Virus record (IMG/VR): IMGVR_UViG_3300035670_013265
Coordinates: 1 to 30,243 of that record
Strand: one strand, 5' to 3'
Length of the DNA: 30,243 nt
Source of the DNA: a virus
The position numbers were made by a program, and so were the translations under genes. The notes below the pieces were generated by a model. The model did no database searches and was not told where the DNA came from. It saw nothing but the letters and a program-made list of their open reading frames with translations. This document shows, one piece after another, positions 1 to 21,600 of the stretch (positions within the stretch are counted from its first letter, which is position 1; the number at the start of each line of letters is the position of its first letter).

Positions 1-528
1 TGCAACTAGAACTCCCGTTTCATATTCTATGTAATACAACGGTCTTTTGTGGTTTCGATAGAATTTGAGAGTTTTGTCTGCACTGAGTTCACAGACTCCC
101 ATTGACATGCTGTTGAATCTCTGGAGTGCATCGTCGAACAGAAGCACAAGTTCAGAATCGTTCTTGGTTGTGCAGTCTACACCATAGAGTTCTTTCCACA
201 AAGAAGAATCTTCTTGAGTGATAACTCCATTATGAACGATTGATTTCTGTTCGTTTGCTATTGGCTGATTGTATTCAAGATCGCTTGTAGAATATCTGCA
301 ATGACCTATCAAATACAAATTTCCATCCTCATTCAAATAATTTTGAAATTCAAATGGAAATTTTCTTGCTGGAACGGGCAATTTGATTGTTTCGACCCTG
401 GAGTTCCTCACAAAAGAAACTCCAGTAGCATGCAACCCTCTGACGCTAGATTCTTCGAAAAGTGTTTTCAGCAAAACAAAATCTATGTCAGAAGGTTTGA
501 TGATAACAGCACCAAGTACAGCGCACAT
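1..528 (-). CDS. Class II glutamine amidotransferase (Ntn hydrolase), 3' part missing
   Basis: The frame reads open from ATG at 528 to the window edge (176 codons), so the C-terminus is missing. It begins Met-Cys-Ala-Val-Leu-Gly; Cys2 would be the N-terminal nucleophile after Met removal. Class II amidotransferase motifs follow in order: GHCRYST near residues 76-82, HNGVI near 99-103 and NDSELV near 123-128. These match the glutaminase domain of PurF, GlmS and AsnB, which frees ammonia from glutamine for an acceptor domain or partner. No acceptor domain is visible in the part present, so the substrate is unknown. Its ATG overlaps the stop of the dioxygenase gene by one base (TAATG), so the two are probably translationally coupled. 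The fold call is firm; a role in DNA modification is inference from the neighbour only. Confidence 0.88.
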   Translation of the reverse strand, partial: MCAVLGAVIIKPSDIDFVLLKTLFEESSVRGLHATGVSFVRNSRVETIKLPVPARKFPFEFQNYLNEDGNLYLIGHCRYSTSDLEYNQPIANEQKSIVHNGVITQEDSSLWKELYGVDCTTKNDSELVLLFDDALQRFNSMSMGVCELSADKTLKFYRNHKRPLYYIEYETGVLVA

Positions 529-1925
529 TAAGAAAAGAAATCCTCAAGAGAAACAGAATTTTCAAACGCTTCTACTAGATGCGGGTGGTGGCGGCTCAAA
601 TACTTATCTCCGTTTTCTTTCGACTTCAAAAAGTCATACCATTCTCTTGAGGTTTCATAGTTCCCGCCTTTCTCTGGTGCATCAGCCCACATTCCTGGAG
701 AGATCCCGTTCCAAAGAGGTCTTTGTAGTGGATGCTCTTTGTTCTTGCGACGGAACTCAACAAACTCGTAGCGATAATCTTCGTATTGTTTAGAGCCAAG
801 ATCCAACATTCCTTCTCGCAGATAGCAAACCAACGAGATGCGCTCTGATCCTTCTTCGCAAACAATAGGAGTGTTTCCGTGGATTACTTCGTGATTGTTG
901 ATCAGCAACAAGTCGCCTGGACGAACATTGATAGCTGCTCGATATTCAGGAAGAACCAGATATCCACCAGTGTATCGTCCATCGTTGGAAAGAACACATA
1001 GATTAGAAAGACCGTCAGAGAAGTCACCAGCGTCTAGGTGTGCTGCTGTTCTGAAAGTTTTGTTGACAGTGACAGTCGTAAAGACTGTGTCGGGAACCAA
1101 GAAAGCAGGATCGATTTTCTTAGATGCCTCATATTGATTGTTCCATCTCCAAGGTAGAAGTTCTTTGAATGCGTCGTTGAGAGATTTCAAGAAAGGGAAA
1201 GCCTTCTTGAACTGATCGAAGTTATGTTCGGTGTATGAAGTCGCCCGACCGTATGGAATCCGAGGATACCGATCGAACCAACCACATATACCACTGAACA
1301 CAGAGTTCGCGTAAGTTGTGGTACTAATCATATCCTTGCAGACTTTTTTGGCTAGTTCTGCTTTTTGTTCTTGTGGAAGATCCTTGATGGATTCAAGCCA
1401 TTGGTTGAACTCAAAGTTTGATTCTTTCGTTTTCTGTGAAAGCCAGACCTGTCCCCTTGAAGAGGAAGCTGGTTTGTTCTTGTACTTGGCTCTGATTTCT
1501 TGTATTGGGTCGGAACTTTCAATGAGCGTATTTGTTGCAGTCATCAGACAGTCGAGAATCTCGTATTGTTCTTCGGTGACCCATTCGCGACCACCTAGAT
1601 TGTCAACTTTTGGACCAGCTGCCATTCCACGGTTCTGAGACTGTACTGCAGCTTCTCGCAAGCCTTCGTAGGCTTGATCTTGTTGCTCTTTGGAAAAGAA
1701 GTTCTTGCGGAAGATGAATCCGATTTTGCGTTCGTCTCTGCCCTTTTCGCAACCAGAGCATCCTGTGCGATCTTGACAAGAAGAAGCAATTTCAACAGAA
1801 CAATCAGGAAACCCGTAGAAGTCTGTGTCCTCGTTGATCACAACGTCATAGTGACTCTCGTCCAGAAACTGACCGATGAGATGATCTGCGTTGTGTTTCT
1901 CTGTGGCAACAATAACCTTTACCAT
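528..1925 (-). CDS. TET/JBP-like 2-oxoglutarate/Fe(II) dioxygenase
   Basis: This 465-residue protein has a C-terminal double-stranded beta-helix dioxygenase domain (about residues 275-375). The iron ligands appear as HLD (H296, D298) and H349 in NHEVIHGNT, and R362 in ERISLV would bind 2-oxoglutarate. The context GGYLVLPEYRAAINVRPGD is typical of the TET/JBP branch, which oxidises 5-methylpyrimidines or thymine in DNA. The N-terminal half has a Cys cluster (C42, C50, C56, C59) that could bind metal, and a helical linker. It starts with ATG at 1925 behind a sigma70-like promoter and ends overlapping the amidotransferase start. In phages, TET-like enzymes are known to initiate hypermodification of cytosine. 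No C5-methyltransferase is visible in this window, so the actual substrate is unproven; another 2OG hydroxylase role remains possible. Confidence 0.82.
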   Translation of the reverse strand: MVKVIVATEKHNADHLIGQFLDESHYDVVINEDTDFYGFPDCSVEIASSCQDRTGCSGCEKGRDERKIGFIFRKNFFSKEQQDQAYEGLREAAVQSQNRGMAAGPKVDNLGGREWVTEEQYEILDCLMTATNTLIESSDPIQEIRAKYKNKPASSSRGQVWLSQKTKESNFEFNQWLESIKDLPQEQKAELAKKVCKDMISTTTYANSVFSGICGWFDRYPRIPYGRATSYTEHNFDQFKKAFPFLKSLNDAFKELLPWRWNNQYEASKKIDPAFLVPDTVFTTVTVNKTFRTAAHLDAGDFSDGLSNLCVLSNDGRYTGGYLVLPEYRAAINVRPGDLLLINNHEVIHGNTPIVCEEGSERISLVCYLREGMLDLGSKQYEDYRYEFVEFRRKNKEHPLQRPLWNGISPGMWADAPEKGGNYETSREWYDFLKSKENGDKYLSRHHPHLVEAFENSVSLEDFFS

Positions 1926-1957
1926 TTTATCCTCTGATGTTTGGATTGATATAGACT

Positions 1958-1986
1958 ATAATAACCCTACTTTCTGTAAAAGTAAA
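1958..1986 (-). promoter_or_regulatory. Sigma70-like promoter for the dioxygenase/amidotransferase pair
   Basis: On the minus strand TTTACT (1986-1981) is followed after 17 bp by TATTAT (1963-1958). The predicted start lies about 25-30 bp before the ATG at 1925. The same TTTACTTT-type -35 recurs at several other gene starts in the window. Confidence 0.6.
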
Positions 1987-7003: not shown

Positions 7004-7684
7004 TCACTCAAACTTCTTGAAAAACGAGATCACTTTGGCTATTTCAATAGCAATCGCTTGGGCGAGTTCGCGATGTTCTTTCTGAGTGGAAGGGTCAGTA
7101 CGGACTTCACAATAATGCAACCAGCCTCTTATGGTGTTATTGGCATATAACCTTGATACGGTATTGCCCTCTGGTAGTATTGCTCTCGCTTGCTCTTTGG
7201 CTATTCCGTTTGACACTGCCCAAGAATATGAATCACGAACTATGCGATTTATCTCTTGTTGTTTTTCTTCCCACAGTCGGGACAGTTCCCGATGGGCAGG
7301 GATATTTAAGTCAATGTCGATTGAATTCTGACGGTTCTTATCATCCTGGAATCTTGCTTGGCGAGTGACGAATTCAAGATCTTTTGTTGGATCTGCGTAT
7401 CGTTGCGAATACTCTTGGAAAGCGCAAGAACGATGGCGCAATAATTGCCGAGCAATATCACGAGTCGTTTCAATTTCTAGAACCGCATTGCACATCTCAA
7501 ACGGTGAAAAGTGCTTGTGCTTCAGAAGATAATTCAGGAGTTTTTCTGATGTTTCAAAATTAGATTGATTCGAAGGATTGGAAACTCGAGCGCAGTAGAC
7601 AATCAAATCCTGGACGTCCTTGGCTCCAGTCAATTCACGAAATTCTTCTGTTGGTTGGGTATATGATATTAGTTTGACTTTCAT
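7004..7684 (-). CDS. thyX: Flavin-dependent thymidylate synthase
   Basis: The 226-residue product carries the ThyX motif RHRSCAFQEYSQRY (residues 83-96, an RHRX7S-type motif). ThyX methylates dUMP to dTMP using FAD, NADPH and methylene-tetrahydrofolate and acts as a homotetramer. The C-terminal region holds the other conserved part (ILPEGNTVSRLYANNTIRGW, residues about 169-188). The length is normal. ATG at 7684 has GGAG upstream. It lies between primase and ribonucleotide reductase, and fits with the dCMP deaminase at 27.5 kb, which supplies dUMP. Confidence 0.96.
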   Translation of the reverse strand: MKVKLISYTQPTEEFRELTGAKDVQDLIVYCARVSNPSNQSNFETSEKLLNYLLKHKHFSPFEMCNAVLEIETTRDIARQLLRHRSCAFQEYSQRYADPTKDLEFVTRQARFQDDKNRQNSIDIDLNIPAHRELSRLWEEKQQEINRIVRDSYSWAVSNGIAKEQARAILPEGNTVSRLYANNTIRGWLHYCEVRTDPSTQKEHRELAQAIAIEIAKVISFFKKFE

Positions 7685-7694
7685 TTGTTCTCCG

Positions 7695-8723
7695 TTAGAC
7701 TTTCTTCCACATTTTTAGAGCCAGCTTCGCAGCAGCCCCACGCTTTGAATTCTTCTTGATTGACTCGAGAATGTTTCTGGTTGTGATCTCGGCTTTGATC
7801 ATGTCATTGATATCTTTCAACGAACTGTCATATTCCCAGAACATCACGTTGTATCCAAGATCGATCGCTAGATCCATTCTCATAATCGTGTCTTTCGAAC
7901 GAGGCTCATTATCTAGACAGACGTAGACCTCTCGCGAGGGAGTCTGTTTGAAAACCGTTTGCAGACCACCAACGTCACCACCACAGATAGCCAGACAGTT
8001 CGGCAAAAACAGACTGTCAATGATTCCCTCTGTAACAAACACAGGATATTCTTTCAAGTCAGCAGAGTCAAGCCCGTATACCTTGGGGAAATCGTCATCG
8101 GTCTTGATAGTGATAAACCTGTATTTCTTGTCAACTTTGCTGTCAATGGTTCTGGCTTGGAAACCGAATAGTCTGTCGTTCTTGTCTCGCATCTCAAAAA
8201 CTATTCTGGCATCAGAAGGCAGGTTCCTTTCTTTGTATTTTTCGATGCCAAGCTTGTTGACAACATAATCTTTCAGGTTGTCTGTGTACTTGATTTTGGA
8301 AATCTTCGATTCAGGGATCAGGCGGTCTCGGCAATACGCTCTTGCAGGGTGTCCAAATTCAAGATCAGAGAGCCGAGAAATGTCTTGGGTTGGCTTGGTA
8401 TCAACCATGGGAGTGCGTTGCTTCGCAGCCGTTTTAGGGGCTTGGAGCGAACCATTTTCTTTGAACTTCTCGGTCTTGTATTCTGTGTGTAGTGTTGGAT
8501 CGATCTTCTTGAGGAATGTGTCAAAAGAATATTTCAGACCGCAGTTGAAACAACCAAACCAAAACTCGGTCTTGTGCTGGTAAATGTTTCCACGAGTCTT
8601 GGATTTGTTCTTCTGCGAGTCGCCACAGAACGGGCATCTGAAAACATATCCAGCACCCGATCTTTTGAAACGCTCAAGGCGTGGGGAGACCAACCCGATG
8701 TATTTCTGATCGAGCCAAGACAT
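7695..8723 (-). CDS. DNA primase, zinc-finger plus TOPRIM (T4 gp61-like)
   Basis: The 342-residue protein has an N-terminal zinc ribbon (C30-x2-C33 and C58-x2-C61) and a TOPRIM domain: VTEGIIDSLFL with E232, then VYVCLDNEPR with D271, and KDINDM (303-308). A basic C-terminus follows. This is the layout of single-domain phage primases that make RNA primers for the lagging strand alongside a separate helicase. No helicase domain is fused. The ATG at 8723 has only a weak ribosome site. It is preceded by a MazG-like gene that contains a promoter-like sequence. Confidence 0.9.
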   Translation of the reverse strand: MSWLDQKYIGLVSPRLERFKRSGAGYVFRCPFCGDSQKNKSKTRGNIYQHKTEFWFGCFNCGLKYSFDTFLKKIDPTLHTEYKTEKFKENGSLQAPKTAAKQRTPMVDTKPTQDISRLSDLEFGHPARAYCRDRLIPESKISKIKYTDNLKDYVVNKLGIEKYKERNLPSDARIVFEMRDKNDRLFGFQARTIDSKVDKKYRFITIKTDDDFPKVYGLDSADLKEYPVFVTEGIIDSLFLPNCLAICGGDVGGLQTVFKQTPSREVYVCLDNEPRSKDTIMRMDLAIDLGYNVMFWEYDSSLKDINDMIKAEITTRNILESIKKNSKRGAAAKLALKMWKKV

Positions 8724-8741
8724 ATTGTTTTACCGAAGATT

Positions 8742-9026
8742 TTAGTTGAAAAGACCCGATTCAGTCCAACGCTTGAGTTTTTCTTGTTTGGCTCTGCAAG
8801 CATCAGCGACTTTATTACTGTCAATGATACCTTTATCCATCAGAAAAGTAAAGAGATATGTTAGGTCGCCAATCTCGGTCTGGAGATGGTCGCGATTAGA
8901 AACGCCATCGTATGAATTGTCAAGTCCGAATCGGATGATCTTGGAGCAAGCCTGAGTTACTTCAGAGCATTCTTCCATCACCAACAACAGAGTCTCCGAG
9001 AGAGCCTTGAAGTCTAGATCATTCAT
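8742..9026 (-). CDS. MazG-like nucleotide pyrophosphohydrolase (94 aa)
   Basis: ATG at 9026 is chosen over a longer frame because GAGGTG lies just upstream. The all-alpha NTP pyrophosphohydrolase motifs are present: MEECSEVTQACS (an E-E-x-x-E helix) and EIGDLTYL (E-x-x-D). Such enzymes hydrolyse (d)NTPs to the monophosphate and pyrophosphate; phage versions are thought to clean the nucleotide pool or alter host ppGpp. The size is near the minimum for the fold. It sits between a 29-aa membrane peptide and the primase. The substrate is not predictable. Confidence 0.8.
   Translation of the reverse strand: MNDLDFKALSETLLLVMEECSEVTQACSKIIRFGLDNSYDGVSNRDHLQTEIGDLTYLFTFLMDKGIIDSNKVADACRAKQEKLKRWTESGLFN
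8824..8852 (-). promoter_or_regulatory. Candidate internal promoter for primase-thyX-nrdJ
   Basis: Inside the MazG-like coding region, TTTACT (8852-8847, minus) is followed after 17 bp by TATCAT (8829-8824), the same layout as the intergenic promoters. It would start transcripts about 95 bases before the primase ATG. Being inside a gene, it could be chance. Confidence 0.3.
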
Positions 9027-9141: not shown

Positions 9142-10086
9142 CTAGATAGATACGCACCAGTGGATTTTCATGAAGTTTGCAATTTCTTTGAGGGATTGCC
9201 TTGCGTCTTTGTGAAGCGCCGCCCACATCTGAAAGACGTGACCGTGTTTCTCCCATACCTTGAGAGTACAGTATGCGCCTTGGGCTTTTGCGTTCTTGTT
9301 GACAAACTTAGCGTCGGACAAAAGCACTTCCGTTCCACCGACGTGAATCAGTATTGGAGGGAACTGGGAAAAGTCGGCAAACGCTGGAGAAATAAGAGGA
9401 TTCCTGAGTTCCTCGTCTGTTTTCTCTCCGACATACATTTTCCTACAATCAGCCATTCTGTGGGGTGGAATCATCATATCGGTTGAAAGATTGTATTCTA
9501 TAGATGGACCATTATTTGTCAAATCAGCCCATGGGCTTAGACCAACTACGCAAGCTGGTTTGTTTTCGGGCATGAGCGCTGCAATCGCCTCAGTTGTAGC
9601 GAGGGCTAGATTACCGCCAGCAGAGTCTCCTGCTATTGCAATATCCTTTCCTGTATATCCCAACGACAGAAGATACTTATATGCCTCGACGCACTCGTTT
9701 ATCTGTGTCGGAAACATCTTGTCAGGAGCCAGAGTATATTGAACCGTGAACACTTTCCTCTCGGTATACTTTGACAGACAAGAAGCGATTATCCTGTGTG
9801 TAGCAGGAGAACAGGTAACAAACCCGCCTCCATGAATGTACAATACGACCTTGTCGTCTTTTATGTTAGTTCTTTTTCTTGATATCCATTCTCCTCTTAC
9901 GTTACCCAGATCTACTTTGTCTATGTTGCACATATAAAACGTGCTAGAGACAGGTTCAAAAAGGGAAACAAACTGAGGCAGAAGTTTGAACACTCTTTCG
10001 TGAGCAGGAGCATACTTGAACGCTTGCTTGAATGTTCCTTGAATAGTTTTGTCTAGAACAAAATGAGGAAGATGAAATTTGAACAC
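9142..10086 (-). CDS. Alpha/beta hydrolase, hormone-sensitive-lipase family esterase
   Basis: The 314-residue protein has the HSL (family IV) signature HGGGF at residues 85-89 (oxyanion hole), the nucleophile elbow GDSAGG with S155, an acid candidate E253 (in GGTEVLLSDA) and the catalytic H283 in KHGHVFQMW. The family hydrolyses short-chain esters and lipids. There is no clear signal peptide, so it is expected in the cytoplasm. It starts with GTG at 10086 behind GAGG. Such an enzyme is rare in phages; possible roles are host lipid turnover, deacylation of a polysaccharide or inactivation of a small molecule. The substrate is unknown. Confidence 0.88.
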   Translation of the reverse strand: MFKFHLPHFVLDKTIQGTFKQAFKYAPAHERVFKLLPQFVSLFEPVSSTFYMCNIDKVDLGNVRGEWISRKRTNIKDDKVVLYIHGGGFVTCSPATHRIIASCLSKYTERKVFTVQYTLAPDKMFPTQINECVEAYKYLLSLGYTGKDIAIAGDSAGGNLALATTEAIAALMPENKPACVVGLSPWADLTNNGPSIEYNLSTDMMIPPHRMADCRKMYVGEKTDEELRNPLISPAFADFSQFPPILIHVGGTEVLLSDAKFVNKNAKAQGAYCTLKVWEKHGHVFQMWAALHKDARQSLKEIANFMKIHWCVSI

Positions 10087-12266: not shown

Positions 12267-12502
12267 TTTATTGCCTGCAATAATTTGATGTTAAGAACCA
12301 TATTTTCAACAAGCAACGCAGTTACAACAGATCTTCCAATGATAGGATCGTCCAGATCCTTGTTTTCTAATGTTGAAATCGCCATCATCCGATATGCGTT
12401 CTCCTCGTCTACGCTCAACATCCCCCAGTCTATATGATTCTCGTTCACAGTCATTGCTAGTTCGACAATCGCGTCAACAGGCGATGTTAATTTCTCGGTC
12501 AT
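12254..12502 (-). CDS. Hypothetical protein (82 aa)
   Basis: The 82-residue product is helical and acidic with a basic end; no motif is recognised. ATG at 12502 overlaps the stop of the repeat protein (TAATG) and has GGAACG upstream. It is the last gene of the fibre-like run, and its stop codon is in the loop of the terminator hairpin. It may be a small virion or chaperone protein, judged only by position. Confidence 0.65.
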   Translation of the reverse strand: MTEKLTSPVDAIVELAMTVNENHIDWGMLSVDEENAYRMMAISTLENKDLDDPIIGRSVVTALLVENMVLNIKLLQAIKKGA

Positions 12503-12903
12503 TATTTCGTTCCGATGACAACTGTTTCTTCAAGACCATTTTCACCGATCAGACCGTTGGTTAGACCATTCTCGCCGATCAGACCAGAATCAGATCCAGG
12601 TGGAAGAGGCTGTGGTCCAATTGCCACAACGCTGAAAGCTGCGTCAACAAGAGCATCAACGTCAGATTCGGAAAGCTCAAGACCATTTGTTCCAATCAAA
12701 CCATTCTCGCCGATCAGACCACGGATTCCTTCGAACCCTTGTTGGACGAGAGCCAAATCAGCTTTCGAAGCAATGTTCTGGTCGATTTGGTCCATTCTTT
12801 GGATCAAAGAAGAGACTGCTTGGCTTTGCATGGAGTGGACTCTACTAACAATAGATTTTGTCATAGAAGAAACAAGTGTTGCAAATGGATTGTTGTTTGG
12901 CAT
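12502..12903 (-). CDS. Fibre-like protein with GLIGENG repeats (133 aa)
   Basis: The N-terminal part (residues 1-58) is helical (MTKSIVSRVHSMQSQAVSSL) and resembles the N-termini of the neighbouring fibre-like proteins. It then has GLIG(E/T)NG units at residues 62-68, 68-74, 107-113 and 117-123, separated by a Pro-rich linker (GPQPLPPGSDS). Gly-rich hydrophobic turns of this kind fit a beta-solenoid or triple-stranded fibre segment. Stop and start overlap the 82-aa gene. A virion appendage role is inferred from repeats and neighbours. Confidence 0.7.
   Translation of the reverse strand: MPNNNPFATLVSSMTKSIVSRVHSMQSQAVSSLIQRMDQIDQNIASKADLALVQQGFEGIRGLIGENGLIGTNGLELSESDVDALVDAAFSVVAIGPQPLPPGSDSGLIGENGLTNGLIGENGLEETVVIGTK
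12534..12720 (-). repeat. Imperfect 22-bp coding repeats (GLIGENG units)
   Basis: Units at 12534-12555, 12564-12585, 12681-12702 and 12698-12720 share the core CCGATCAGACC or a variant and code the GLIG(E/T)NG motif. The near-identity of DNA in three of the units suggests recent unit gain. Confidence 0.65.
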
Positions 12904-13416: not shown

Positions 13417-14172
13417 TCAAGTAGGGTTTGCTTCGGAAGCAGCAAGAGCGGCAACAGCATCAAACAGAGCCTGACCAGAAAGACCCTCAAGAGTGGTTCC
13501 AGTAAGAACTAGATGATTCACAGCAGCAAGAACACCATTGATTTGGGTCTGTAGATCTGCATCAGCTGCAGCGCGAACAGTAGCTTCTGTTTCAAGAGCT
13601 CCGTTAATAGCAGCTCCAACAGTAGAAACCGTTACAGTACTTTGAATAGCTGTTTCGAGGCTAGTGATTCTGGTGTTGATAGTGCCTTCAGAAGAAACAG
13701 CAGATTCAACAGAAGAAACTCTCGCGTCAAGAGCAGCATCTCCAGCCAGACGCTGAGAGATCTCGTCGCCCATTACAGTAGAAACTACAGCGTTTACATC
13801 AGCGATTGTAGCACCAGAAGCAGAAGAAGCCTCTAGAGCATCAATGCGGTTGTCAAGGGCTTCGTCAGCAGCAATACGGGCAGCGGCTTCTGTTGCAACA
13901 GCAGCTTCACGATTTGCAATCTCAACAGTAACAAGATCAGCATCGGAATTAACACGAGCAGCAATTTCTGCAAGAGTGTTAAGATCTTGTGGGGCAAGAT
14001 CTGTGATTGCTGTGACTTGAGTTTCAAGAGCCATCAGATTCGCGAGAGTTGCTTTGTCAGCTAGTTCTGAATCGATACGAGTAATTTCAGATACATTTGC
14101 TTTGGTAGTAAGCTTGTTGTTTACAACACCCATTACACCAGAGACTATACCACGGATAATATCAGTCAACAT
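13417..14172 (-). CDS. Coiled-coil fibre-like protein (251 aa)
   Basis: The product is Ala-, Asp- and Thr-rich with repeated segments such as EAAARIAADEALDNRIDALE and DAALDARVSSVE that form trimeric coiled coils in phage tail fibres. A hydrophobic N-terminal helix (MLTDIIRGIVSGVMGVV) matches the pattern of the neighbouring proteins. The C-terminus (GLSGQALFDAVAALAASE) is short with no receptor-binding domain. ATG at 14172 has GGAG upstream; a terminator follows the gene. It is likely a shaft or hinge part of an appendage. Confidence 0.78.
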   Translation of the reverse strand: MLTDIIRGIVSGVMGVVNNKLTTKANVSEITRIDSELADKATLANLMALETQVTAITDLAPQDLNTLAEIAARVNSDADLVTVEIANREAAVATEAAARIAADEALDNRIDALEASSASGATIADVNAVVSTVMGDEISQRLAGDAALDARVSSVESAVSSEGTINTRITSLETAIQSTVTVSTVGAAINGALETEATVRAAADADLQTQINGVLAAVNHLVLTGTTLEGLSGQALFDAVAALAASEANPT

Positions 14173-15589: not shown

Positions 15590-16642
15590 TCACGCCTCTA
15601 ATGGAGGTGGTGGATTAACAATAGATTCAATATGATCTTTGCTAATAGTAGCGAGAAGTTCTGTTTTGTTAGGCACTACTTTTTTAGAGTCTGGTCCAGT
15701 TGTATACAGATCTATGAAACTTTCTGCATATAATTTTACAAACCCAAAACTTGGGGTGTTGTGAAAGGTTGGAATTAAAAATTGGAACACCAACAAAGTT
15801 TGTTGCACTTTCTCTTCTGTAGGCAAATCAATTTCATCGATACCAGCTTCTTCTATGATGGAATTGGCTTCTTCGGGAGAAGGAGAGTGCACCACGAAAT
15901 TGGTTAGAAATAACACATCAACAAATTGTTCGGATTCATTGTATATTTCTAATTTTATCTTCATCCCATGTACATTTTGTCCAATATTGTTATCATCCAA
16001 TTCAGTTGGCACTACAACAAACACGTTAGTTGAAAACATATTATATGGATTTAAGGCGATTTCTCCATATTCCATGTAGACTACAGAAATTGGTTCGACA
16101 ACCTGTACAGGCTCTGGTGGCTCTTCCCCACCACCTCCATCCATGGAAAATTCTGAGACTTCAAGCAAATAGTTGTCTATGACTTTAATCAGGTAATTCT
16201 CAGCAAAATCCATACCAGAAAGAACAATTATCTTGTCAAATATCTGCTTGGTTATGCCGTGTTGCTTTAGAGTAGCACCTATAGTTTGAACTTGTTTTCT
16301 TTTAACTGGTTCTATCGCCGAAGCTGTTATATCTTTTGATAGACAATTTTGTATGATTTGTCTTATGGTTGTGTCTAGGCTTGAATTTATTTGAGTGGGG
16401 GATACAGAAATAGAGTTGTTATTGGTCTTAAAATATATTTGTTGGATATCAATTCCCTTTGATATCTGAGCACGAACATCAGCAATTAGCTTCCTGACAT
16501 TAGTTTTACCAAGACTCATAGAAGAAAAGATTGACTCTACTTCTTTGACCTGATTTTCTGTCTGTCTGATTTCTCCTTGGACAATTAATGCTTGGTCAAG
16601 GATGGGTTTTATTTGGCTAAAATCAAGAAATTCTAGACTCAT
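15590..16642 (-). CDS. Modular appendage-like protein, paralog A (350 aa)
   Basis: Residues 1-160 are the shared module found also in the proteins at 17449, 19234 and 19732: a helical start, a NVRKLIADVRAQI helix, IYFKTNNNSISVSPTQ, LDTTIRQI and SKDI. A Gly/Pro linker (DGGGGEEPPEPV, about 168-180) leads to a unique C-terminal domain (about 180-350) of mixed strands ending in a Pro-rich tail. It sits in the fibre-like cluster behind a perfect TATAAATA motif. The module is likely a virion attachment or oligomerisation domain, with the C-terminus as the variable part; no known domain was recognised. Confidence 0.75.
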   Translation of the reverse strand: MSLEFLDFSQIKPILDQALIVQGEIRQTENQVKEVESIFSSMSLGKTNVRKLIADVRAQISKGIDIQQIYFKTNNNSISVSPTQINSSLDTTIRQIIQNCLSKDITASAIEPVKRKQVQTIGATLKQHGITKQIFDKIIVLSGMDFAENYLIKVIDNYLLEVSEFSMDGGGGEEPPEPVQVVEPISVVYMEYGEIALNPYNMFSTNVFVVVPTELDDNNIGQNVHGMKIKLEIYNESEQFVDVLFLTNFVVHSPSPEEANSIIEEAGIDEIDLPTEEKVQQTLLVFQFLIPTFHNTPSFGFVKLYAESFIDLYTTGPDSKKVVPNKTELLATISKDHIESIVNPPPPLEA

Positions 16643-16679
16643 TAGGCAAGTTCCATATCGTTTGATACATTTGTCGAAT

Positions 16680-16687
16680 TATTTATA
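16680..16687 (-). promoter_or_regulatory. Late promoter TATAAATA
   Basis: An exact match to the T4 late consensus on the minus strand, 38-45 bases before the ATG of paralog A and overlapping the end of the glycosyltransferase gene. Confidence 0.55.
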
Positions 16688-17435
16688 CCCTATCAGAGTG
16701 CTTGGATATTGACTTTATATCGCCTTTGAAGAAGTGTAATCCAGCGTGTTCTATTTCTGCCGCTTGGTACATATAAATCTTCTCACCAATACCTCTGCAA
16801 AGTTTACAAAACCAATATCCCTCAGACATATACCTTCCAGTTTCTTCATCAAGTCTAGCGTCAAAGAAACAAGTCACCGTCTTGTTTTTTGCAAGCACAG
16901 AATGTGCTTTGAATGTTAAATTTGGATATTCTTGTTTTACTTTAGCGAAGGTTTCTCTCTTGACCATAAAAAGAGCAGTACCAACTTCAACGACCTCATT
17001 ACGAGAACTTAGGTTTACTCTATTATCTCCACTAAAAGCGAATTCTGCTCCGAACGCTTCCATATCGTGTTCGCTTATGGAAGGGTTTTTTATTACAGCA
17101 GTTTTTATTCTGTCCCATCTGATAGTTTTCTTTGGAAACGCCGCTCCGATAACTCCTACGTTAGACTTTATCATGGAAATAACATCAGATGCTCTGAATC
17201 CAATGTCAGAATCAATGAACAAAAAATGAGTGAAGTCGGTTTCTAGGAATTCTTCTACAAGATAGTTTCTTGCTCTTGATATTATTGCGTCTTTGAAGAT
17301 GTACATAAAACGAGTCTCTATGCCAAGTTTGGAACAGAGACTCTGTAGTTCAAGAACAGATCTAATGTAGATCCCATGCGCCGTTCCATCGTGCATGGGA
17401 GTTGCTACAAATAATTTTACATTTGAAAGAGTCAA
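16683..17435 (-). CDS. Glycosyltransferase, GT-A type (250 aa)
   Basis: The product has a GT-A-like fold start (LFVATPMHDG), a helix with ISRARNYLVEEFL, and the metal/nucleotide-sugar motif FLFIDSDIGF (DSD near residues 75-77), followed by GAAFPKK and a late Cys/His segment (FCKLCRGIGEKIYM, EHAGLHFFKG). Phage enzymes of this type transfer sugars to DNA bases or virion proteins. It starts with TTG at 17435, supported by AGGTG five bases upstream; no ATG fits. It lies between two members of the paralog family, so virion-protein glycosylation is a reasonable guess, though action on hydroxymethylated DNA made by the TET-like enzyme is also conceivable. Confidence 0.8.
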   Translation of the reverse strand: MTLSNVKLFVATPMHDGTAHGIYIRSVLELQSLCSKLGIETRFMYIFKDAIISRARNYLVEEFLETDFTHFLFIDSDIGFRASDVISMIKSNVGVIGAAFPKKTIRWDRIKTAVIKNPSISEHDMEAFGAEFAFSGDNRVNLSSRNEVVEVGTALFMVKRETFAKVKQEYPNLTFKAHSVLAKNKTVTCFFDARLDEETGRYMSEGYWFCKLCRGIGEKIYMYQAAEIEHAGLHFFKGDIKSISKHSDRV

Positions 17436-17448
17436 TTAAACACCTATA

Positions 17449-19200
17449 TCAAGGAAGGGCAACGGTGAAATTCACCCAGCCAATCAATTCTTCTTGGATG
17501 TATACTTCCATAGCATAGTTTCCTGTGTTACTTAGAAGTGTACCATCAGATGTAGTTATTGTTGTTCTCGCCTTCCATAGATTGTCAGATTGATATATTG
17601 TTCCTGCAGTTGATACCAAAAGAATATTTCCGGATTCAGAATCCATTCTGTATATGTTGAAATATGCAGTCAAGTTAGAAATGTCTGATTGGACTCCTAG
17701 CAGACCAAGAGTTAGTTGATATGTAGAAACTCCAGAATACAGAAGGTTTGTTTGATCTGGGTTGTTTTCTATTGTAGTAAAGTTTCCTTCTTGGGTAGCA
17801 TAAGAAGGCACGTCCCCAATGATTGAGTAGTACGAACCAAGATTATCGAACGAAATAGAAGATAGATCTGGTAGATCTCCTGAGGAAGAAGAACCAGAAC
17901 TTCCACAAGAAGAACCACACGATGAACTACAGGAACTTATCCAAGAAGAGCTACAAGAATCATCTGGTTGTGTATCAGGAGTATATCTCAGTTTGAAACT
18001 TATGTATTTCCAGAAGTATGAGGTGTTTGTCTGAGTATCTAGAACGTAGATAGGGAATGAAAATGCTTGAGATTCCCAAGGTAGAAATGTTTCCTGGTCG
18101 CTATTAAGCGTCAACCAAGTATCCAAATTTATTACGTCTTCTAATTGTAAGAAATTTAACGATTTGAAAATTTGTCTTTGTTCTTCTGTAGCATCATATT
18201 CATAAGAACCACCACCCAAGAATCCATGTTCAACGAGAAAGTCATCAATGCATTTAAGTTGTTTATCACCAACCAAAAATTTATATCTAGAAACCGTCTC
18301 TTCTGGTATTTTGTATGGGTTAAGTATAGATAATGGATCTGAACTAAACTCTGGTGTTGTGGCAATTGGGTTAATTTGTTGGCTAAACTTGTTTATTGAT
18401 ACAGGAAGATTAGGACCACTAGATCCTTCTGTAGTGTGATTTGGGTTAAAGAATATTGCTGCCGATATTTGTGCGGCATACACAGAAAGTATATCCATTG
18501 TATTATCAAGATTATCATCATCCCACCGTAAAAGTTTTTGTAAATCAAAGATACGAACTCCGTTTTCTATTGAAGCGGGGGAATTGTATCTAATCCCACA
18601 TATAAAAATATCACTATCTGATAATGCTACTTGATTGTCTGAAGTAAGGAAATATTCCCTTCCTGTTGAAATGGGACCTCCTCCCCCACCTGATTGATAC
18701 CATTCTTCTTTGTCTTGTATTGTTCCTATAAATCCTTGAGATGTTATGAAACAATAATTTAGAGGATTTCGTACTTCGTAAGAATGTTTTAGCATCTTAT
18801 CGAAATTGGGTTTCTTTACTCCAAGGGGCTTCAATTCATTGTTGTATAGATCCGTTATTTGTTTCTTTTTTACATTCTCTATAGAACTTGTGCCAATGTC
18901 TTTCCCAACAAGAGGAGAGAGAATAGATCTTATTTGAGAGTCTAGAGAAGCATCAATAACAGTAGGAGAAATTGCTATAGTTCCGTTGTTATTTCTAAAG
19001 AACGTATTTGATAATGGAGTTTGGCTCTGATTGATAGAAATGATAAGTTTTCTAACCGAAGATTTATTGAACCCCGCCGCCTGGAAGTTTTCAGTCGCTG
19101 TGTTTAGATATTCTTCTGTTTGTTTGATCTCTATGTGAAGGGATTTTGCTTGTCCGAAAATATTCTTTACAGCTTCTAGCGTCAATATCTCTAACAACAT
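17449..19200 (-). CDS. Modular appendage-like protein, paralog B (583 aa)
   Basis: Residues 1-160 are the shared module (SVRKLIISI, FFRNNNGTIAISPT at 67-80, LDSQIRSILSPL, GKDI). A penta-Gly linker (171-175) follows. The centre (about 180-410) is beta-rich. A Ser/Cys-rich low-complexity stretch (415-441, with Cys 416, 424, 428 and 432) separates it from a C-terminal domain (about 442-583) with an immunoglobulin-like beta pattern. ATG at 19200 has GAGAGG upstream and an AATAAATA motif 31 bases upstream. It is likely a large virion appendage or adhesin. The C-terminal parts have no recognised family. Confidence 0.78.
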   Translation of the reverse strand: MLLEILTLEAVKNIFGQAKSLHIEIKQTEEYLNTATENFQAAGFNKSSVRKLIISINQSQTPLSNTFFRNNNGTIAISPTVIDASLDSQIRSILSPLVGKDIGTSSIENVKKKQITDLYNNELKPLGVKKPNFDKMLKHSYEVRNPLNYCFITSQGFIGTIQDKEEWYQSGGGGGPISTGREYFLTSDNQVALSDSDIFICGIRYNSPASIENGVRIFDLQKLLRWDDDNLDNTMDILSVYAAQISAAIFFNPNHTTEGSSGPNLPVSINKFSQQINPIATTPEFSSDPLSILNPYKIPEETVSRYKFLVGDKQLKCIDDFLVEHGFLGGGSYEYDATEEQRQIFKSLNFLQLEDVINLDTWLTLNSDQETFLPWESQAFSFPIYVLDTQTNTSYFWKYISFKLRYTPDTQPDDSCSSSWISSCSSSCGSSCGSSGSSSSGDLPDLSSISFDNLGSYYSIIGDVPSYATQEGNFTTIENNPDQTNLLYSGVSTYQLTLGLLGVQSDISNLTAYFNIYRMDSESGNILLVSTAGTIYQSDNLWKARTTITTSDGTLLSNTGNYAMEVYIQEELIGWVNFTVALP

Positions 19201-19230
19201 TATTGAAAACCTCTCGTCTTTATTGTTCGG

Positions 19231-19238
19231 TATTTATT
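19231..19238 (-). promoter_or_regulatory. Late-promoter-like AATAAATA
   Basis: On the minus strand, 31-38 bases before the ATG of paralog B, overlapping the stop of paralog C. One base differs from the T4 late consensus. Confidence 0.4.
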
Positions 19239-19731
19239 GGATTTTGAAGCTGAACCCTTTAGAAAATATCATATTAAGTATAGAATCCTTCAAGAACAGA
19301 TCTTCGTCGAAAGAATTCCTGTCAACCATCATTTTGAATGAAACAGAATCGATTCCATAATTCTTGGAAAGTTTTATTTTATCAGAAAGAAGTTTTGCTT
19401 TTATTGGTTCAGCAGCAGAAGAACTTATATCTTTGCTCATCAGAGGAGATAGCTTTGCTCTTATGTTACTATCAAGGGTTTCGTTTGTCTGTGTAGGAGA
19501 TATAGAAATCGTTCCATTTGTGTTCTTGAAAAACACTTCAGAAAGTTGTTTGTTAGATTTCTTGATTGCTGCTACAAGAGACTTTATGTTCGGCTTCTTG
19601 AATCCTTCTGAAACTAACTCTGCTTCTTTGTCTGCAATAAGATCAACAGTTTCTTTTATTGCTGTTCTAAGATCCAGACACTCTTGGATGTATGCTTCTA
19701 GTAATTGCTTGTCTGCTACTATTATTGTCAT
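19234..19731 (-). CDS. Stand-alone copy of the shared module, paralog C (165 aa)
   Basis: The whole protein is the N-terminal module of its neighbours (IKSLVAAIKKS, FFKNTNGTISISPTQ, LDSNIRAKLSPL, SKDI) plus about 25 residues of its own at the C-terminus. There is no effector domain, so it may be a minimal subunit, a cap, or a form that lost its C-terminus. ATG at 19731 directly follows the stop of paralog D (TAAATG), and AGGAG lies nine bases upstream. No frameshift into paralog B is seen, so it looks like an intact small gene. Confidence 0.75.
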   Translation of the reverse strand: MTIIVADKQLLEAYIQECLDLRTAIKETVDLIADKEAELVSEGFKKPNIKSLVAAIKKSNKQLSEVFFKNTNGTISISPTQTNETLDSNIRAKLSPLMSKDISSSAAEPIKAKLLSDKIKLSKNYGIDSVSFKMMVDRNSFDEDLFLKDSILNMIFSKGFSFKIQ

Positions 19732-21600
19732 TTAGATAACTCCTATGTCGCCCCAAGCAACAAATCTTTCTGGAACTGGGAATTCAAATGGTCTTGCTCC
19801 GACGTTTAGACTGATCTGTTCGAGAGATCCTTTGAGAGCAACACATATTTTCATGGCTTGGTTTACAGTAAACGAGTAAGAAGCGTACGAAGAAGAACCT
19901 AGAGAAATAGATGGTGGTTCATAAGAAGCCCAATCTTCTCCGACTCCAAACCAAACAACACCCATGTCAAAATCAACAGCAACTCTTACAATACCACCAG
20001 CTTCTATTGGTACTAACGCAGGGCGAGAATCATATTGTCCTGTGCTGCCATACCCACCATAGGTTATAACACCAACTGCTCTGTTAGGAACGATTCCGAA
20101 AGAGTTTGTATATTTTCCTGGATAGAAATCTGCCGCTAGGTTGTTCATTTCTTCTTGTATCAATCCTACAACCAAACAATTTTGTTCGTTTGCTAGGTTT
20201 TTTACTTCAAAATACTTCCTACCTGTGTACGCAGATTTTTCCGAAACAGAAGAAACCCAAGTGGTTGAGCTAGAATTCAACGCCAAATTTTGCTTGGAGT
20301 TTGATATTGAAATTTTTGGAGAGGTCTTCGTCTGATCGAACCCTTCTACTATCTGAGGAGAATCAAACACATTGCTTGTTTTGACAGAAAAGTTGTCTAT
20401 GTACAGAATTGGTTGTTTTTCTTGCTGGGATTCTATATTAACATTGTCAGAATTAACAAAGGCGGCTAAATCTGAGAAAGTAAACCCAACGTACATAACA
20501 GTAGAAGTTATATTGTTAACATATGCGCTATAATAATTTCTAGCGATTCTAGTTTCGTTTGTTGAAATATTTGTTAATTTCATCTCTTTTCTGTATGCAG
20601 CGTTTACGCTGTCGTACCAGAAAGATATTTTTAATTTGTACCATTGGTCTGTCTGAATTTGGTTATCTATGCGAAGTTCCGAATATGATCCTGTAGAGAG
20701 AACCAAATCAAAATTTCCCGCTGCCTGACCTGATTCTTTTTTTATCTGTAGAACAAACAGAGAATACACGTTCACTATAGTAGAACGCATAAACGAATAC
20801 GCTTCTACTTCTTCGGATTTCTTTAGTTTGAAATCCATTTCCAACACAAATGTATCCTCTACATCTACAAATCTTTGATCAGAAGTAATTCCTATGGAGT
20901 TTATAGCGATATTCCAAGTAGTCAACCCAACAAATTTGGCAGCGTTTCTTCCATCAACAACTTCTACCGAAGAAACCCCCATAGAACTGACATTCGCTCC
21001 AGAAATTTCGCTAGTCAGGCTAGAATCCATCAACAAAGATCCTTCGGTTCCAACAACCTCAAACTTCAGGATTATAGTTGAATCTTCTTCAATGTAACTA
21101 GAAGGATTCTCTACGTCCCCAGTTTCCAAAAGATATCCGTCCTTCGAGTACACATAATAGTTCAACTGTGTGGTTGTAGAGGTGATTTTGTTTAGAATAT
21201 CATAGAACTCGGTTTTCTTCATTCCATACACAAGCATCTGTTTCTCTATAGAAGCGACTTGTGCTTTCTTGGAGATTTCCAGCCCTTTATCTGTAATGTC
21301 TCTAACAAGCAAAGGCTCGATGATTGGTCTTACTGCAGAATCTAACTGTTGACTTATCTGTGTTGGATTTATAGAAAGAACACCAGAGGTGTTTTTGAAA
21401 AACACCTGACCTAGTTGTAGATTGGAAGTTTTTATTTGGTGTACGAGTTTTGTTAGATTGGAAGTCTTGATCCCTAGAGAAGCAAGACTTCCTTTGGCGG
21501 TTTCAAAAAGAGAAGTTGTCGTAACAACTTCTTTTTGAATGGTTTTTGCTTGTCGTATTTTTTGTAGTATGTTAGGGAAGTTTACCGTTTCTAGCAACAC
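19732..21600 (-). CDS. Modular appendage-like protein, paralog D with lectin-like and SPRY domains (622 aa)
   Basis: Residues 1-160 are the shared module (LTKLVHQIKTS, FFKNTSGVLSINPTQ, LDSAVRPI, VRDI). Residues about 185-405 look like a LamG/concanavalin-type jelly roll (FVLEMDFKLKK, WYKLKISFWYD, ILYIDNFSV), and residues about 440-610 match a SPRY-type domain (KYFEVKNL, GIVPNRAVGVITYGG, VRVAVDFDMGVVWFGVG). Both are binding folds for sugars or proteins, so this is a good receptor-binding candidate. It starts with GTG at 21600 behind AGAGGG; a TTAAATAC motif lies 34 bases upstream. Confidence 0.8.
   Translation of the reverse strand: MLLETVNFPNILQKIRQAKTIQKEVVTTTSLFETAKGSLASLGIKTSNLTKLVHQIKTSNLQLGQVFFKNTSGVLSINPTQISQQLDSAVRPIIEPLLVRDITDKGLEISKKAQVASIEKQMLVYGMKKTEFYDILNKITSTTTQLNYYVYSKDGYLLETGDVENPSSYIEEDSTIILKFEVVGTEGSLLMDSSLTSEISGANVSSMGVSSVEVVDGRNAAKFVGLTTWNIAINSIGITSDQRFVDVEDTFVLEMDFKLKKSEEVEAYSFMRSTIVNVYSLFVLQIKKESGQAAGNFDLVLSTGSYSELRIDNQIQTDQWYKLKISFWYDSVNAAYRKEMKLTNISTNETRIARNYYSAYVNNITSTVMYVGFTFSDLAAFVNSDNVNIESQQEKQPILYIDNFSVKTSNVFDSPQIVEGFDQTKTSPKISISNSKQNLALNSSSTTWVSSVSEKSAYTGRKYFEVKNLANEQNCLVVGLIQEEMNNLAADFYPGKYTNSFGIVPNRAVGVITYGGYGSTGQYDSRPALVPIEAGGIVRVAVDFDMGVVWFGVGEDWASYEPPSISLGSSSYASYSFTVNQAMKICVALKGSLEQISLNVGARPFEFPVPERFVAWGDIGVI

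Follow-up and report, generated by a model that had tools for sequence, protein, structure and literature searches.

Does a phage gene for a TET/JBP-like dioxygenase that runs directly into a gene for a class II glutamine amidotransferase (GATase) belong to a DNA hypermodification pathway, and is glutamine nitrogen placed on the DNA? The window analysed here is a whole virus record of 30,243 bp, whose position 1 is the record end. An earlier sequence-only reading had proposed that the two genes at this end form one module, which may aminate an oxidised methylated base. Only the TET gene and about three quarters of the GATase gene are seen in the window, the latter being open at the contig end (Table 1). 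Because the record and the window coincide exactly, the remainder of the GATase gene and the genes after it lie outside the record. No sister contig turned up when viral contigs were scanned for exact 24-mer matches, and the truncated GATase recovered no relatives when used as the sole query. A promoter scan upstream of the TET gene gave 6 sites against 5.9 expected, and thus no evidence of a promoter.

Table 1 Features of the window, with the evidence for each
Feature	Position	Strand	Basis
TET/JBP-type 2OG-Fe(II) dioxygenase (465 aa, phrog_24024)	528..1925	-	PF12851, PHROG, AlphaFold2 model
Predicted Fe(II)-binding H296-x-D298	1032..1040	-	Invariant, 29 sequences
Predicted Fe(II)-binding H349	879..881	-	Invariant, 29 sequences
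Predicted 2OG-binding R362	840..842	-	Invariant, 29 sequences
Optional Cys cluster C42/C50/C56/C59, possibly metal-binding	1749..1802	-	10/29 sequences; low-confidence model loop
Class II glutamine amidotransferase (Ntn glutaminase), N-terminal 176 aa	1..528	-	PF13522 (GATase_6), 3e-9; conserved residues
TAATG stop/start overlap of one base, coupling TET to GATase	526..530	-	Sequence; same overlap type in relatives
ThyX thymidylate synthase	7004..7684	-	PF02511, 7.8e-38; supporting context only

A predicted TET/JBP dioxygenase overlaps a predicted glutaminase

The 465-residue protein matched the Pfam Tet_JBP family at 3.6e-25 and 88.5 bits, against a curated cut-off of 34.9, and PHROG 24024 (function unknown) at 4e-162. 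The residues that had been singled out as TET/JBP-type (H296-x-D298, H349 and R362) are all present and are invariant across the 29 aligned TET sequences. A structural model had been set beforehand as the check on this assignment, with a match to a non-TET 2OG hydroxylase as the adverse outcome. The best fold matches of the AlphaFold2 model (pLDDT 78) were human TET2 (Z 20.5), NgTET1 (19.2), CcTet (18.6) and CMD1 (18.4); matches to this group spanned Z 17.4-20.5, and the next family, ABH3/AlkB, followed from 14.4. By sequence and predicted fold, the protein is a true TET/JBP dioxygenase, and its predicted activity is the oxidation of a 5-methyl group in DNA, on either T or 5mC.

The cysteine cluster noted earlier in the N-terminal half is indeed there, but its standing as a conserved functional element was ruled out, since only the minority of aligned TET sequences given in Table 1 carry it; residues 52-62 of the model, in the loop that holds the cluster, fall below pLDDT 50. 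The cluster is an optional insert outside the catalytic core. Several deposited phage genomes (L082, L083, L085 and L086; DLP6, Cr30 and others) name their TET-family proteins 'SNF2 DNA repair protein', probably a misannotation. As a function for the window protein this name was rejected, since no SNF2 family in Pfam matched it at <=0.1.

The GATase product starts with Met-Cys and contains GHCRYST and HNGVI, as had been observed, and in 19 relatives these features and Asp124 show no or almost no variation. Cys2, Arg78, Asn100, Gly101 and Asp124 are present in the window and invariant in the relatives, and the full-length relatives are stand-alone proteins of 225-235 residues. A model of one of them (L079, pLDDT 89) matched PurF with Z 23.5, GlmS with 21.2 and asparagine synthetase with 17.9. 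On the strength of this model, the GATase is a free-standing Ntn glutaminase domain with PurF as its nearest fold. The two genes meet in the TAATG overlap reported before, where the last A of the TET stop codon TAA is the A of the GATase ATG.

The TET-GATase pair heads a conserved operon in related viruses

An IMG/VR scan with the window TET yielded 80 loci at 53-62% identity, and a scan with a GATase alignment yielded 493 relatives, 80 of which were kept; 114 loci of the combined set hold a GATase. Because the loci were picked by TET or GATase similarity, the counts below describe one clade, not all phage GATases. TET precedes GATase in all 111 loci with upstream room, directly in 103 and with a small 2OG oxygenase gene between in 8, and the one-base overlap is kept in 100 of 112 pairs (94 TAATG, 6 TGATG). 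Where the contig was long enough, a GNAT gene came after GATase in 91 of 93 loci, an ADDT gene was found in 75 of 75 and a P-loop DNA-kinase-like gene in 51 of 53; an amidoligase occurred in 10 of 93 GATase loci. The order is TET, GATase, GNAT (or amidoligase plus GNAT), ADDT, f11 and P-loop kinase. In these relatives, ADDT matched PF18724 ('Amino acid:DNA transferase', 1.6e-23), the kinase PF18751 (1.2e-6) and the amidoligase of L152 PF12224 (7.5e-9), and the Pfam match of GNAT was weak (4e-4). At 90% TET identity, the TET-GATase pairs form 20 clusters, and median pairwise dN/dS was 0.09-0.16 for every operon gene, indicating purifying selection.

The pairing of TET with GATase is therefore not accidental. 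We read the cassette as a DNA hypermodification operon, of which the window holds the first two genes, and this conserved context strongly supports the proposal that the two act in one module. By analogy with relatives at 53-62% TET and 53-61% GATase identity, GNAT, ADDT and kinase genes are expected past the contig end. On the other side of the window TET, the flanking genes differ from those of all relatives, so the arrangement of the window genome is not identical to theirs. The 493 GATase relatives from one scan and more than 100 related viral fragments make the cassette common in uncultured viruses.

The GATase itself very probably belongs to the DNA hypermodification module. A function away from DNA, in cell-wall or protein modification (superinfection exclusion) with co-location in the operon only, has a precedent, as a role in the cell wall or metabolites has been proposed for the phage amidoligase-GATase modules of the PaP3/phiEco32 type (PMC10580990), and the nearest cultured GATases sit in PaP3/Kovu-type phages. 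The window GATase, however, is 53-61% identical to TET-linked GATases and about 30% identical to those of the PaP3 type, and its invariant position between TET and ADDT across the 20 TET clusters, with the one-base overlap, makes this reading highly improbable.

Still less credible is a TET-like enzyme whose substrate is protein, RNA or a small molecule. 2OG oxygenases switch substrate easily, and the gene between TET and GATase in eight loci encodes a second 2OG-Fe(II) oxygenase (about 200 aa, PF13759; L056, L059, L062, L071, L047 and others). Against this stand the modelled fold, which is closest to DNA-acting TETs, the linkage to ADDT and to a kinase, both of families known from DNA modification, and the weak TET-associated glycosyltransferase matches in other relatives.

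In further relatives, the GATase slot is taken by glycosyltransferases or a cytidylyltransferase, and TET thus appears to be the constant opening step, with decoration genes that can be exchanged: it holds its place in the operon while GATase-GNAT, amidoligase, glycosyltransferase and cytidylyltransferase genes swap. Several clusters carry unusual additions. A tryptophan-halogenase-like gene (L152:10139-11614; PF04820, 7.9e-93) lies within a TET-GATase-amidoligase-ADDT operon, and a member of the same halogenase-like cluster lies near TET in another locus (L013:606-1982). A myo-inositol-1-phosphate synthase gene stands between ADDT and the P-loop kinase at L004:3917-5056 (PF01658, 1.1e-20) and in Cr30 (L083, 13293-14474), hinting at an inositol-derived decoration. 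The TET cluster of L065 has a gene for a 512-residue nucleotidyltransferase-plus-APH-kinase-like protein (7433-8971), flanked by a TAGT-like gene and a gene with a weak ADDT match.

A predicted route from methyl oxidation to a nitrogen-bearing base

Family knowledge and gene context suggest a post-replicative hypermodification of phage DNA. TET would first hydroxylate the 5-methyl group of a pyrimidine in the DNA, with conversion of thymine to 5-hydroxymethyluracil (5hmU) being likelier than that of 5mC to 5hmC. The kinase would then phosphorylate the hydroxymethyl group to give a good leaving group; in related phages, a DNA kinase phosphorylates 5hmU in DNA before a transferase modifies it (PMC6449724). 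Next, ADDT may swap the leaving group for an amine, glutamine hydrolysis by the GATase providing ammonia for a 5-aminomethylpyrimidine. GNAT would finally acylate this amine or, in a variant, the amidoligase would attach an amino acid or some other carboxylate. The likely purpose is to shield the phage DNA from host nucleases. We regard this TET-kinase-ADDT-GATase-GNAT/amidoligase route as a whole as fairly likely.

Its most delicate point is the destination of the ammonia. In PurF, glutamine-derived ammonia displaces pyrophosphate from PRPP, and in ADDT enzymes an amine displaces a phosphorylated leaving group on the base. By analogy, the GATase ammonia may go to the ADDT step, for which we see a chance slightly short of even; the amines used by ADDT homologues are, to our knowledge, amino acids or putrescine and not ammonia, which counts against it. 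More tentatively, the pair could constitute a glutamine-dependent DNA aminase, a split counterpart of PurF: ammonia from a stand-alone Ntn glutaminase would pass to an ADDT whose substrate is phosphorylated 5-hydroxymethyluracil in DNA, so that the thymine methyl would become an aminomethyl group, then given an acyl or aminoacyl cap by GNAT or amidoligase. The GATase arm in the operon predicts a base that carries the glutamine nitrogen and, if the aminase reading is true, this would be a DNA modification route with glutamine as the nitrogen donor.

The main rival keeps the GATase on DNA but assigns it to amide chemistry: it would feed the amidoligase or GNAT, so that a carboxylate introduced by ADDT is amidated at the expense of glutamine, along the lines of PaP3/phiEco32-type modules. 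The GATase nearly always adjoins GNAT or amidoligase, GATase-amidoligase pairs occur in the TET-free phages PaP3 and Kovu, and for one group of phage DNA ligases, which carry a fused glutaminase, amidation of 5-carboxymethylcytosine has been predicted (PMC12783734). Independent support for amide-type decoration of TET-oxidised DNA comes from the genes grouped in a distant element, whose contig was binned with a Parcubacteria MAG; its combination of TET, kinase, amidoligase, GNAT and oxidoreductase genes also speaks for the route proposed above. This element (L157:2052-8930), which looks like a distant phage hypermodification cluster, contains GNAT, glycosyltransferase-like, amidoligase, LMW phosphatase, ParB-like, FAD DAO (FAD-dependent oxidoreductase), PF18751 kinase and TET genes, and the GATase queries used found no GATase in it. 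Amidation is nevertheless doubtful, since just the 10 loci noted above have an amidoligase and the modelled GATase fold is nearer to PurF than to asparagine synthetase. We also know of no GNAT protein that uses ammonia.

Gene content favours thymine as the modified base

The sequence-only reading had advised looking for a C5-methyltransferase near the two genes. No such enzyme (PF00145) was found in the window or in 12 GATase-type records, two of which are about 160 kb long, or in nine TET-bearing records that include five complete phages, one of the nine being shared with the GATase-type set. The dUMP hydroxymethylase family (PF00303) was likewise found in none of the 13 records formed by the window and the GATase-type set, most of which are fragments, and ThyX occurs in eight of these 13, the window included. 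The window ThyX makes ordinary dTMP and no hydroxymethyl precursor. The lack of both enzymes in these records, with ThyX in eight, favours thymine as the TET substrate, and thymine is the substrate of kinetoplastid JBP. We therefore consider thymine the probable modified base, in which case TET would stand in for a dUMP hydroxymethylase as the source of 5hmU.

One residue counts against settling on thymine. Five positions after the first His, the window TET has Asp301, which aligns with an Asn of TET2. The TET of the Melnitz phages, which is linked to a C5-methyltransferase, likewise has Asp at this position (HVDSGD), whereas the mycobacteriophage 'thymidine hydroxylase' has Asn. The match with Melnitz fits a cytosine route, in which TET would oxidise 5-methylcytosine made by the host or by an unrecognised methyltransferase, after which kinase, transferase and amidotransferase would act as above, decorating 5hmC. 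5mC in DNA is a demonstrated substrate of phage TETs, C5-methylation supplied by the host is possible, and in the cultured Melnitz phages an HhaI-like C5-methyltransferase directly precedes TET, accompanied by a related kinase. We nonetheless hold the cytosine route to be unlikely for the window, as PF00145 was not found in the records listed above and 5hmU is the substrate of those DNA kinases that have been characterised in thymidine systems (PMC6449724).

In Melnitz (L155:2137-6217), the C5-methyltransferase, TET, a 427-residue protein without a Pfam match and the kinase stand in a row, a candidate cytosine version of the cassette. It shares the TET fold and a related kinase with the GATase-type records, which differ in having no C5-methyltransferase.

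The amidotransferase arm distinguishes the operon from known systems

TET-ADDT-kinase systems are known. In Rhodococcus phage Tonitrus, the combination of a TET-like protein, aGPT-PPlase2 and a 5hmU kinase has previously been interpreted as serving thymidine hypermodification (PMC11955845). The actinophage cassettes of Tonitrus and Mycobacterium phage Prince (gp2-gp4) likewise place a TET-family oxygenase, ADDT (aGPT-PPlase2) and a P-loop kinase side by side, but their TET is only distantly related, their kinase is about 26% identical, and no GATase or amidoligase was seen within the stretch examined. Cr30, a Caulobacter phage, and DLP6 are the nearest cultured TET relatives. The Cr30 TET is 48% identical and is followed downstream by ADDT and a kinase (39%); it differs in that no GATase was found near TET, TAGT-like and inositol-1-phosphate synthase genes being there instead, and in that a PF00303 gene is present. 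Phages M6, ViI and phiW-14 have hypermodifications derived from 5hmU (PMC6449724, and the Lee 2018 work cited there). In these phages 5hmdU is incorporated during replication, whereas in the GATase-type operon no PF00303 enzyme was found, TET would make 5hmU after replication, and the GATase is an additional component.

Two further systems involve glutaminases. In the CmoA/CmoX/CmoY 5-carboxymethylcytosine system, one CmoY cluster has a glutaminase domain, and its predicted activity on phage DNA draws ammonia from glutamine (PMC12783734). This system differs in that the AsnB-type domain is fused, the handle is a carboxymethyl group and the ligase forms AMP, and no TET, ADDT or kinase is described for it (PMC12783734). 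The PaP3/phiEco32-type modules (PaP3, Kovu) also have a class II GATase beside an amidoligase, but no TET, ADDT or kinase is annotated nearby; gamma-glutamyl cyclotransferase and ATP-grasp proteins are further partners that mark this type of module.

We found no phage TET or thymidine hypermodification system coupled with such a GATase in the literature searched, although an earlier description may exist. The GATase arm appears to be new: with it, TET-ADDT-kinase hypermodification of phage DNA gains an enzyme that splits glutamine and, in some members, an amidoligase as well. If the proposal is true, the operon would be a source of enzymes for tagging DNA with amines, and it would present an anti-restriction strategy open to testing.

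Other genes of the window

The sequence-only reading was largely right in kind, in that it proposed TET-based phage DNA hypermodification with a glutamine-amidotransferase arm. Its extension to three further window genes was not borne out. The dNMP kinase and the dCMP deaminase belong to ordinary T4-type nucleotide metabolism. The 16.7-kb glycosyltransferase (16683-17435) sits between tail-fibre-like paralogues with a common N-terminal region (15590-21600), though it is 40% identical to a glycosyltransferase encoded two genes after TET in L009. Elsewhere, positions 9142-10086 encode a hormone-sensitive-lipase-type alpha/beta hydrolase (PF07859, 1.7e-46), an unusual phage cargo, and the genes at 12502-12903 and 13417-14172, which adjoin a metallophosphoesterase gene, encode short proteins with repeated GLIGENGL or coiled-coil-like sequence.
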